Source: Euzebya rosea (GTDB taxonomy: Bacteria > Actinomycetota > Nitriliruptoria > Euzebyales > Euzebyaceae). Taken from it: 64,000 nt of DNA. The stretch's first letter is position 1. Every line of letters begins with the position of its first letter. The notes under the pieces are model-generated. The model saw only the letters and a program-made list of their open reading frames with translations. It did not search any database and had not been told where the DNA came from. Below are positions 40,963-44,410 of the stretch, piece after piece. The DNA lies in NCBI RefSeq assembly GCF_003073135.1, contig NZ_PGDQ01000004.1, positions 174,363 through 238,362 on the forward strand. Direction: 5' to 3'. Made by a program: the position numbers and the translations under genes.

Positions 40963-42702
40963 TCAGCCGGTCGGGGTCCCCGCACCTGCCGGCGTTCGGG
41001 TCCGTCGCTTGTCGGCGAGCGCTGCTTCCGGCCGGCCCGCGCGACGGCGACGTGCAGCCAGTGCGACGGCCTCGGCCTCGAGCGTCGCCCCGCTGGCGAC
41101 CGGCCAGCCGTACGGCGCATCGCTGTGCTCGAGGCGGGCGCCCGGGCCGTGCACCCACGAGCCGATGATCGCCACCTCCTCCGGTGGTGGGACCTCGCTG
41201 GGGGAGGGGCGACCGGCCAGGTCGGCCACTGCACGGTCGACGTCCTCGGGTGCGACGACGACGGTGCCGAGCAGCCAGCCGGCCCGTGCGACGAGGACTT
41301 CCCGACGCGACGGCATCCGGGCTGGCCGTGACACCGCGAGGGTGCCGGCGGCGCGCAGGGCCTGGTCCCGGCGTGTGCGGGTGACCCACGACACGATGGC
41401 GTCCATGCGGTCGCGGTAGTCCGCGGCCTCCTCGTACCGCGCCTGCTCCGCACGTGCGGACATGCGTTCCCGCAGGACCCGGATCGCCGGTTCGACGTCG
41501 CCGGACAGGACCTGCTCGGCGGCGCTGGCGGCCTCGGCATAGCCATCCACGTCGACCCGGCCGATGCAGGGGGCCGCACACCGGCCCATCTCGGCCAGCG
41601 CACAGGCCGCGAAGCGGGTGTCAGCGGCCATCTTCGTGGTGCAGCGACGGATGGGGATGGCGTCGTGGATGGCATCGACGACGAGGTCGGCGACCCGACG
41701 GGAGGGGAGGGGGCCGAGCACCACCGCACCGTCGGACCCGGGGGAGCGGACGATCGACAGGCGGGGGTAGGCCTCGCGTGTGACCTTGACCCAGACGGGT
41801 GTGCGGACCTTCTTGCCGCGCTTGTTGAACCGGGGACGGTGCTCGCGGATCTCCCGCGCCTCGCGGACCTCGGCCTCGACCGCTGTTGGCGTCACGGTGT
41901 GGTCGACGCGCTTGGCCTCCTTCACGAGCTCGGCGATGCGTCGTCGCCGGTCGGTGCCGAAGTACTGTCGGACCCGGGCGCGGAGGTCGGTGGCCTTGCC
42001 GACGTAGAGGATCTCCCCGGAGGCCGAGACGAAGCGGTAGATCCCAGGTGTGGTCGGCAGGTCGTCGGCCATCTTCCGGCGGGACGTGAACACCGGCATG
42101 TTGCGGACCTTGCTGAACTCCACGAGGTCGTCCATCGTCACCACGCCGTAGCTGCCGGCCCGCTCCAGCAGGCCGTGAAGGACGTCGACGGTTGCGCGGG
42201 CGTCGGCCAGGGCGCGGTGCACCGGCACGGTGGAGGAGCGGAAGTGCACCGCGAGGGAGGACAGCTTGTGGTTGCGGGTCTCGTCGCCGACCAGCCGGCG
42301 GGCCAGCTGTGCGGTGCAGACCACCGGGTGGTCCAGCCGTGGGTAGTCGAGGCGTTCCAGCGCGGCGTTGAGGAAGCCCACGTCGAACCGGGCGTTGTGG
42401 GCGACCAGCGTGCAGCCGCGGGCGAACTCCACGAACGACGGCAGCACGGCCGAGACGGGTGGCCGTCCGCTGACCGAGGCATCGGAGATGCCCGTCAGCG
42501 CCGTGATGGCCCGGGGGACCGAGACACCCGGGTCGACCAGGGTCGACAGCTCGCCGAGCAGCTCGCCCTGTCGCACCTTCACCGCGCCGATCTCGGTGAT
42601 CCGATCGCGCTCCGGCGACCCGCCGGTTGTCTCCAGGTCGACGACGACGAACGTCGTGTCGACCAGCCGCTGGCCGAGGTCGCTGAGAGAGGGCTGGAAC
42701 AT
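40963..42702 (-). CDS. DEDD exonuclease fused to UvrC-like GIY-YIG domain
   Basis: 579 aa from ATG 42702 (the frame stays open to GTG 42747). Residues 1-165 are a DnaQ-type 3'-5' exonuclease: VVVDLETTGG (Exo I, DxE), TLVAHNARFDVGFLNAAL (Exo II), HRALADARATVDV (Exo III). Residues about 195-280 are a GIY-YIG nuclease (TTPGIYRFVSASGEILYVGKATDLRARVRQY, read in part), then UvrC-like DNA-binding helices and a UvrB/UvrC motif (RAEQARYEEAADYRDRMD). This is the Cho-like group of DEDD/UvrC fusions. Two LexA boxes overlap the promoter and start, so damage induction is strongly suggested. Confidence 0.92.
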   Translation of the reverse strand: MFQPSLSDLGQRLVDTTFVVVDLETTGGSPERDRITEIGAVKVRQGELLGELSTLVDPGVSVPRAITALTGISDASVSGRPPVSAVLPSFVEFARGCTLVAHNARFDVGFLNAALERLDYPRLDHPVVCTAQLARRLVGDETRNHKLSSLAVHFRSSTVPVHRALADARATVDVLHGLLERAGSYGVVTMDDLVEFSKVRNMPVFTSRRKMADDLPTTPGIYRFVSASGEILYVGKATDLRARVRQYFGTDRRRRIAELVKEAKRVDHTVTPTAVEAEVREAREIREHRPRFNKRGKKVRTPVWVKVTREAYPRLSIVRSPGSDGAVVLGPLPSRRVADLVVDAIHDAIPIRRCTTKMAADTRFAACALAEMGRCAAPCIGRVDVDGYAEAASAAEQVLSGDVEPAIRVLRERMSARAEQARYEEAADYRDRMDAIVSWVTRTRRDQALRAAGTLAVSRPARMPSRREVLVARAGWLLGTVVVAPEDVDRAVADLAGRPSPSEVPPPEEVAIIGSWVHGPGARLEHSDAPYGWPVASGATLEAEAVALAARRRRAGRPEAALADKRRTRTPAGAGTPTG

Positions 42703-42709
42703 CTGTTCG
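42696..42709. promoter_or_regulatory. LexA box 2 (one mismatch), over the nuclease start codon
   Basis: GGAAC-ATCT-GTTCG on the plus strand, one base off the CGAAC-N4-GTTCG consensus of actinobacterial SOS boxes. It spans the ATG at 42702. Its centre is 22 bases from box 1, two helical turns, allowing two LexA dimers on one face. Confidence 0.7.
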
Positions 42710-42738
42710 ATGGTCGACGAACGAGTGTTCGATGTCAA
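42710..42738 (-). promoter_or_regulatory. SOS promoter of the nuclease gene
   Basis: Minus strand TTGACA (42733-42738), 17-base spacer, GACCAT (42710-42715), then seven bases to ATG 42702. This predicts a leaderless message and favours ATG 42702 over GTG 42747, which lies upstream of the -35. Confidence 0.6.
42718..42731. promoter_or_regulatory. LexA box 1 (perfect)
   Basis: CGAAC-GAGT-GTTCG exactly fits the LexA consensus used in Mycobacterium and relatives. It lies between the -35 and -10 of the nuclease promoter, so repressor binding would exclude polymerase. Confidence 0.85.
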
Positions 42739-42880: not shown

Positions 42881-44410
42881 TTGCGTCTCACCGCCCTGTC
42901 CCTCGCTGCCCTGCTCGTCCTGGGCATGCTCTCCGCAGTGCCGGCGTCGGCTGCGGCCGGCAGCAACATCGAGCACCGCGCCAACCTGCGGTTCCCGGAC
43001 CTGACCTCCAAGGCCCAGGGCACCGATTCCGACTTCATCGAGATGGACATCGATCCCGACCCGGCCGTGGAGACCATCCGCACCATCGGTGTGTTCGGGT
43101 CGATCTACGGCGGCGCCCGGGTCATGGACGTCACCGACGGCCTGCCCGTCGAGCTCGGCTACTACCCGTGCGCGGTCGGCCAGGGCGACGTCCAAGTATT
43201 CCAGCGCGGCGAACGCGACGCCGACGGCAACATCATCGACCTCGGCGCGGCGAACACCTACTTCACGTTCACCGACGACGGCTACAGCAGTCGGGGCGGG
43301 ATCTGCCAGACCGAGGGCAACGCCAACGGCTGGTTCTCCACGACCAAGCAGGGCACCTTCATCGTCGACATCACCAACCCGCGGACGCCGACGACGATCA
43401 ACTTCGTCCCGTTCCCGCGTGGCTCGCACAACATGACGGTGCACCCGTCGACGAACTACCTCTACAACTCCAACTCCGAGCTGATCACGAACGCCGCGAA
43501 CGCCGGCATCGAGTACTGGGACATCACCGACCTCGCGAACCCGGTCAACCTGGGCATCCTGCCGCTGCCGGTCCGTCCGGGGCTGGGCACCGACAGCCAT
43601 GACCTGACCTTCAACGACGAGGGCACCCGCGCGTACTCCGCTGCCCTGTCCCAGACGGTCATCATCAACACCGAGGATCCGGCCAACCCCGAGATCATCA
43701 GCAGCTTCATGGACCCGGCCATCAACGTCGAGCACCAGGCCAACCAGGTCACCCTGACCGACCCGATCCTGGGCGAGCGCGACTTCCTCATCATCGAGGA
43801 CGAGTTCGGCGGCGCGGCCGGTGCCGAGCAGACCTGCCCGTCCGGCGGCACGCACGTCTACGACATCACCGGCGACCTCGAGCGGACCCCCGTGAAGGTC
43901 GGCTCCTGGTACATCGACGACATCACGACCAACGCCACGGTCCTGGGCCGCTGCACGGCGCACGTCTTCGACATCCACGAGGACGCAGCGATCATGACGA
44001 TGTCGTTCTACAACGCGGGAGTCCGCGTGATCGACCTCTCCGGCCTCGTCGGCGTGGCGCTCGGCGGCAACGGCGTGGGGATGCGCGAGATCGGCTTCCA
44101 CCGCTTCGAGAGCGGCGACGCGGGCGGCAAGTCCGACTCCTGGTCGGTCAAGGCCGTCGAGGTCACCGAGTCCGAGGACGGCACGATCTCGGCGTGGCTG
44201 TACTCCAACGACGTGAACCGCGGCTTGGACACCTACTACTTCGAGGGCACCCGTGCGGGCCTGCCGTCGGCCAACGACGCCTGGTTCTCCGGCACCAGCT
44301 GGCTCGCGGCCAACGGTCCCGTGCAGCCGGCGGTCGGGTACACCCCGTTCTGCCTGCTCGGTGACCGTGACAGCAACGAGACCGCCCCGCTGGTGGGTCG
44401 TCTCATCTAG
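42881..44410 (+). CDS. Secreted LVIVD-repeat (beta-propeller) protein
   Basis: 509 aa. The start is TTG 42881, with AGGAG seven bases upstream; no ATG/GTG fits the signal peptide (RLTALSLAALLVLGMLSAVPASA). The mature chain has repeated blades with VFGSIYGGARVMDVTDGLP, GTFIVDITNPRTPTTINFV, GIEYWDITDLANPVNLGIL, TVIINTEDPANPEIISSF and HVYDITGDLERTPVKVGSW, the LVIVD pattern of a 7-bladed-type propeller. Several cysteines and Asp-rich loops suggest an extracellular, possibly calcium-stabilised protein. Function unknown. The upstream gap 42748-42880 shares the LexA region with the divergent nuclease gene but shows no promoter of its own that I can defend. Confidence 0.82.
   Translation: MRLTALSLAALLVLGMLSAVPASAAAGSNIEHRANLRFPDLTSKAQGTDSDFIEMDIDPDPAVETIRTIGVFGSIYGGARVMDVTDGLPVELGYYPCAVGQGDVQVFQRGERDADGNIIDLGAANTYFTFTDDGYSSRGGICQTEGNANGWFSTTKQGTFIVDITNPRTPTTINFVPFPRGSHNMTVHPSTNYLYNSNSELITNAANAGIEYWDITDLANPVNLGILPLPVRPGLGTDSHDLTFNDEGTRAYSAALSQTVIINTEDPANPEIISSFMDPAINVEHQANQVTLTDPILGERDFLIIEDEFGGAAGAEQTCPSGGTHVYDITGDLERTPVKVGSWYIDDITTNATVLGRCTAHVFDIHEDAAIMTMSFYNAGVRVIDLSGLVGVALGGNGVGMREIGFHRFESGDAGGKSDSWSVKAVEVTESEDGTISAWLYSNDVNRGLDTYYFEGTRAGLPSANDAWFSGTSWLAANGPVQPAVGYTPFCLLGDRDSNETAPLVGRLI

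Follow-up and report, generated by a model that had tools for sequence, protein, structure and literature searches.

The window analysed here is a 64-kb stretch of the Euzebya rosea genome (G000), and all positions without a contig name refer to it. On its minus strand lies a gene for a protein that joins a DEDDh exonuclease to a GIY-YIG nuclease (Table 1). The protein matched the NCBIfam model NF005907 (PRK07883, DEDD exonuclease domain-containing protein) over residues 2–552 with 605.9 bits, the cut-off being 454. This full-length match and the two Pfam domains bear out the exonuclease–GIY-YIG fusion proposed in an earlier sequence-only reading. The motifs of both domains are intact. In an alignment of orthologues (A1), D22, E24, D107, H162 and D167 of the exonuclease domain, which we take to be the residues of DEDDh catalysis, were invariant. 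So were Y222, Y233, E281 and N293 of the GIY-YIG domain, presumably its catalytic residues, and profile positions 211–296 of the alignment matched UvrC GIY-YIG chains in the PDB. The UVR motif PF02151 was found in 9/12 members of the alignment, with a best E-value of 0.00032. We rejected an identification as UvrC, as the model TIGR00194 reached 154.8 bits against a cut-off of 285 and aligned only over profile positions 5–231 of 574; a separate UvrC-like match is found in the same genome at C4:433492. Nor is the protein a Cho by architecture, because its GIY-YIG domain is fused to a DEDDh exonuclease and does not stand alone; Cho is not known to have an exonuclease domain. The protein has the full-length architecture of the PRK07883 family (NCBIfam NF005903–NF005907), whose mycobacterial member we take to be Rv2191/MSMEG_4259. 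The neighbouring, divergent gene (42881–44407, plus strand) encodes 509 aa in which Pfam found nothing at E 0.001.

Table 1. Features of the nuclease gene and its upstream region, in window coordinates.
Feature	Position	Strand	Details
DEDDh exonuclease/GIY-YIG fusion CDS (PRK07883)	40963..42702	-	579 aa; ATG 42702; stop codon included
Exonuclease domain, residues 19-175	42178..42648	-	Pfam PF00929, E 6.9e-32
GIY-YIG domain, residues 220-291	41830..42045	-	Pfam PF01541, E 5.3e-6
UVR (UvrB/UvrC) motif, weak, residues 407-436	41395..41484	-	PF02151, E 0.06
LexA box 1	42718..42731	-	CGAACACTCGTTCG; perfect CGAAC-N4-GTTCG; inside the -35/-10 spacer
LexA box 2	42696..42709	-	CGAACAGATGTTCC; one mismatch; 22 nt from box 1; overlaps the start codon
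-35 hexamer TTGACA	42733..42738	-	also in G022; not in G023 or G024
-10 hexamer GACCAT (weak)	42710..42715	-	TAnnnT at this place in 17/19 order orthologues
Start codon ATG	42700..42702	-	predicted transcription start 42703/42702 (leaderless), from promoter geometry

The promoter region agrees with the sequence-only reading, which had described a perfect palindrome between TTGACA and GACCAT and a second, one-mismatch box over the start codon. The two hexamers are separated by a 17-nt spacer and GACCAT is followed by 7 nt and the ATG. The −10 element is poor, reading GACCAT in E. rosea and AACCAT in its close relative G022, where the other 17 of the 19 orthologues from the order have TAnnnT. 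That reading had also moved the start of the gene from GTG 42747 to ATG 42702, and the correction held. The start candidates further upstream (TTG at −36, GTG at −39 and GTG at −45, the last being GTG 42747) all coincide with the −35 hexamer or precede it. In the 95%-identical orthologue of G022 (L015) the frame is closed by a TGA 15 nt upstream with no alternative start, which excludes GTG 42747 there and thus supports ATG 42702. In G024, with an in-frame stop at −33, the sole start is a GTG in the same place as ATG 42702.

For conservation in the order, we searched 30 genomes, and 19 of them gave an orthologue that aligned from near its N-terminus. A LexA box was found upstream of all 19, perfect in 17 and with one mismatch in two, and the distance from the end of the box to the start codon was 13–16 nt in every case. 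TAnnnT ends 6–9 nt before the start in all orthologues except those of E. rosea and G022, and no Shine-Dalgarno-like string was seen at −18 to −4 in any of the 19. The leaderless geometry predicted for the E. rosea promoter also held. Further upstream, the flanks are only 38–52% identical within the genus (30/79 to 28/54), so the block of promoter, box and start codon is what selection keeps. Judged from these sequences, putative leaderless SOS control is conserved across the order. One locus in the set, L032 (G008 C91:7098–8627), is listed as belonging to the same order and stays counted, but may be a transfer or a contaminating contig, because its nuclease clusters with other lineages on the protein tree.

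Palindromes of this kind could arise by chance, in which case the gene would be constitutive. Allowing one mismatch, the window yields six matches where shuffling predicts 3.29. One imperfect match by itself is therefore meaningless there, and the four one-mismatch matches besides the boxes at the nuclease promoter occur at about the shuffling rate. Against chance stand the conservation of the box across the order and, as described below, the phylum, its fixed distance from the start codon, and the lack of perfect boxes elsewhere: beyond the 200 nt upstream of the gene, the loci of the order comprise 154,594 strand-bases, and not one perfect box was found in them. From the genome-wide count given below, about 1.4e-4 perfect palindromes are expected per 60 nt. 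We consider a chance origin extremely improbable.

In the 5.5-Mb genome, the perfect palindrome occurs at 13 sites, while the reversed control pattern yields none, a contrast that speaks against chance where the window by itself could not. Five of these sites lie directly upstream of genes, namely the nuclease gene, recA, lexA with a divergent YneA-like ORF, an error-prone (dnaE2-like) polymerase gene and a Rv2578c-family radical SAM gene; the remaining eight are inside long high-GC3 ORFs. The putative nuclease operator, which overlaps the promoter, is thus the same CGAAC-N4-GTTCG as the boxes at lexA, recA, the dnaE2-like gene and the radical SAM gene. The genome has a single lexA (one PF01726 match of 88 bits; TIGR00498, 202 bits). 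The YneA-like cell-division-suppressor ORF (L004 1540–1956, plus strand, contig C3), whose match is under the curated cut-off, is divergent from lexA over a shared box. The radical SAM gene (L002 1–1485, minus strand, contig C2) is probably leaderless as well, and its best model is intein-containing. The box is of the same type as the Streptomyces LexA operator tCGAAC-N4-GNNCGa (PMC9380542). The targets named in the main text of that paper include a radical SAM-like gene, as in E. rosea, and no exonuclease, UvrC, DEDD or GIY-YIG target is mentioned there.

With a probability of about 0.9, we read the nuclease gene as a leaderless, LexA-repressed SOS gene. This is the role that the sequence-only reading had thought likely, and the conservation of the box at orthologues supports it. 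Points that weigh against it are the weak −10, the imperfect second box and the few orthologues outside Actinomycetes at which no box with one mismatch or fewer was found.

The second box is present in three of the four genus members, 22 nt from box 1 in E. rosea and G022 and 21 nt in G023. Its right half coincides with the codons ATG TTC C of a conserved Met-Phe-Gln. In G024 box 1 is kept, but the second box is degraded with its left half lost, and reads CCAGCGGGTGTTCC. These observations, as well as the single box in most orthologues of the order, would fit an arrangement in which box 1 is the sole LexA operator and box 2 is merely coding sequence preceded by a chance CGAAC. We regard this as possible but rather unlikely. 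The chance of a given CGAAC is 9e-4, and the left half is kept both in G022 and in G023, although the far flank of the latter is only 29/69 and 30/79 identical to those of its relatives. Furthermore, the class acquired tandem boxes in another lineage too: in a second family (f5), a second box is found 15–18 nt away in 10/32 loci, compared to 62/5400 (1.1%) in shuffled flanks. Tandem boxes thus seem to arise repeatedly, and their spacing differs. We infer that two LexA dimers may bind jointly at boxes 1 and 2. The side-by-side dimers that had been proposed for this promoter are thus less certain than its other features, with the second box kept in three of the four genus members and half of it also coding.

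A different regulator also had to be considered. By its consensus, we take the promoter pattern TGTC[AG]-N11-TAnnnT to be the mycobacterial RecA-NDp/PafBC element. PMC8223512 and PMC6789036 support that RecA-NDp promoters are the route by which PafBC acts and that other Actinobacteria have them as well. PafBC is an activator, whereas LexA is a repressor. E. rosea encodes a PafC homologue (C7:194491–194832), and its genome holds 17 sites of the form TGTCRCACC-N7-TAnnnT (L313–L329), one of them at recA, compared to none for the reversed control. For these reasons PafBC control seems to exist in E. rosea. The mycobacterial pattern TGTCRGTG-N8-TAnnnT gave a single match, beside a relaxase-like ORF, probably because the class uses a variant promoter; this variant seems to be TGTCRCACC-N7-TAnnnT in place of the mycobacterial TGTCRGTG. 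The nuclease gene could then be controlled mainly by the activator, as in Actinomycetes (see below), with the LexA box in a secondary role. The pathway in E. rosea would allow this, and a PafBC-like element precedes some f5 orthologues. However, the nuclease gene is not among the 17 sites, and neither a strict nor a loose PafBC motif was found at any of the 19 orthologues of the order. We therefore rejected PafBC control of the nuclease within the order, and main control by PafBC is in our view highly unlikely; the gene seems to lie outside the predicted PafBC regulon of E. rosea. LexA repression remains our reading for this order.

To place the order in a wider context, we surveyed further orthologues. 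In f5, a box with at most one mismatch was found within 200 nt in 27/32 orthologues (13 perfect) and not in the other five; one genome, G054, was left out as its match begins at a contig end. In several f5 genes the sequence GGTCR-N11-TAnnnC, which has PafBC spacing, stands right before the LexA boxes, and a loose pattern found such an element in 14/32. This position and spacing are suggestive of dual LexA and PafBC-type control in the family.

The phylum survey covered 396 genomes, of which 116 gave matches over the family cut-off, and 87 further loci were drawn: 51 non-Actinomycetes, 26 Actinomycetes-like and 10 below the cut-off. A LexA box precedes 48 of the 51 above-cut-off loci from families other than the Actinomycetes-like ones and is perfect at 45; three loci have none with at most one mismatch, and one has a PafBC-type motif. 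The 26 Actinomycetes-like loci (f29, f34, f38, f56, f58, f73) show the opposite: 25 carry a PafBC-type motif and one carries a LexA box. The sequence-only reading had named boxes missing upstream of orthologues as an observation that would speak against it; the boxes are present in the whole order, in most of f5 and at nearly all other non-Actinomycetes loci. The 10 homologues below the cut-off (f15, f18, f22, f30) have neither a LexA box with at most one mismatch nor a PafBC motif. The only locus with both elements among the 26 is L202 (G317), where a perfect LexA box overlaps the PafBC-type motif.

A separate set of 80 named loci was fetched. We counted 70 of them, with at least 40 nt of upstream sequence and neither Nitriliruptorales-like nor Acidimicrobiia-like. 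Left out were L044, L045, L053, L061, L078 and L108, which resemble f3/f5 genomes, three Acidimicrobiia-like loci, and L113, which has 15 nt upstream. The 70 Actinomycetes loci contained 64 TGTC[AG]-N11-TAnnnT promoters, compared to 0.04 expected from shuffles and 0.21 from the density outside (a control that used all 80 loci). No perfect LexA box was found in these 70, and five have one with one mismatch. Perfect boxes were seen in 3/3 of the Acidimicrobiia-like loci, one of which is labelled Acidobacteria. The upstream DNA of L045 and L108, class MAGs labelled Nitriliruptorales/Nitriliruptoraceae, is the same as that of the G027 and G065 loci.

On a tree of 110 proteins, a subsample that includes neither all named nor all f29 loci, the LexA and PafBC labels need one change. 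A 99-row tree under a mixture model (61 LexA, 27 PafBC, 10 neither, one both) again gave one LexA/PafBC change. This count omits the rows with neither or both, and branch support is from SH-aLRT only. The promoter types thus point to an apparent single ancient swap of the damage regulator. We think it probable that the nuclease is damage-controlled throughout the phylum and that a single exchange of its regulator took place where the Actinomycetes branch off, with PafBC activation inside this group and LexA repression in the class of E. rosea and many other lineages. Both elements occur together in f5 and in G317, as expected of intermediates in a regulator exchange, and L202 is possibly such an intermediate. 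The tree is unrooted, and LexA control may be the ancestral state.

We suggest the following sequence of events. In undamaged cells, LexA would sit on box 1 in the promoter spacer, shutting out RNA polymerase, and probably also on box 2, over the transcription start and the start codon. Upon damage, RecA filaments on single-stranded DNA would trigger LexA self-cleavage, and the promoter would open to give an mRNA starting at or beside the ATG. The product would combine a 3′–5′ DEDDh exonuclease with a UvrC/Cho-type GIY-YIG nuclease. Its most likely task under damage is to make or process an incision directed at lesions, working beside the UvrC that the genome encodes separately, with the exonuclease possibly trimming the cut strand. 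This role as an alternative damage-induced incision or processing nuclease is likely by analogy with Cho: E. coli cho is LexA-regulated and uvrC is not (PMC3820734). The likeness lies in a LexA-controlled GIY-YIG module related to the N-terminal half of UvrC, whereas the E. rosea protein differs in being fused to an exonuclease and in carrying a weak UVR motif.

The idea of an SOS gene of this kind has a precedent, because PMC8565304 predicts by comparative genomics that a GIY-YIG exonuclease of Bacteroidetes is under LexA control. It has the same domain combination, and tandem motifs are also mentioned there. It differs in belonging to another phylum with unrelated LexA motifs, and the two are likened by domain combination rather than by established orthology. 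Among the PRK07883 members of Actinomycetes that we examined, the promoter is of the PafBC type, where the E. rosea gene has a LexA box; judged by their motif, the mycobacterial PafBC/RecA-NDp promoters would give the same gene family damage-induced control. In a study of a mycobacterial nuclease, MSMEG_4259 is tabulated beside recA and ruvC among the altered genes (PMC9416677). Our searches of open-licence PMC papers found no report of an SOS GIY-YIG exonuclease for Actinobacteria or of a LexA/PafBC exchange, no regulation study of Rv2191/MSMEG_4259 and no mention of PRK07883. With these results, an uncharacterised exonuclease–endonuclease fusion joins the likely SOS core of the deep actinobacterial lineages, and its promoter is defined exactly enough to be tested. 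Should the regulator swap be true, the gene would offer a clean case for asking how a RecA/LexA repressor gives way to the ssDNA-sensing activator PafBC at an unchanged output gene.

Finally, the same elements were looked for at two other repair genes. All nine uvrC upstreams tested lack both a LexA box and a PafBC-type motif. Of 30 recA loci fetched from the class, 28 were tested; L311 and L312, whose matches begin only at profile position 66, were left out. In 27/28 there is a LexA box with no more than one mismatch, and 17/28 also have a PafBC-type motif. At E. rosea recA (L305, C3:122570–122660), a perfect LexA box lies at −159 and the PafBC-type site TGTCACACC-N7-TACCGT at −90. E. rosea (C15:97189–98148) and G022 (C1:4270994–4271953) each have a second recA-like gene that exceeds the TIGR02012 cut-off, and the one in E. 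rosea is preceded at about 250 nt by a PafBC-type site on the opposite strand (C15:96923–96944).
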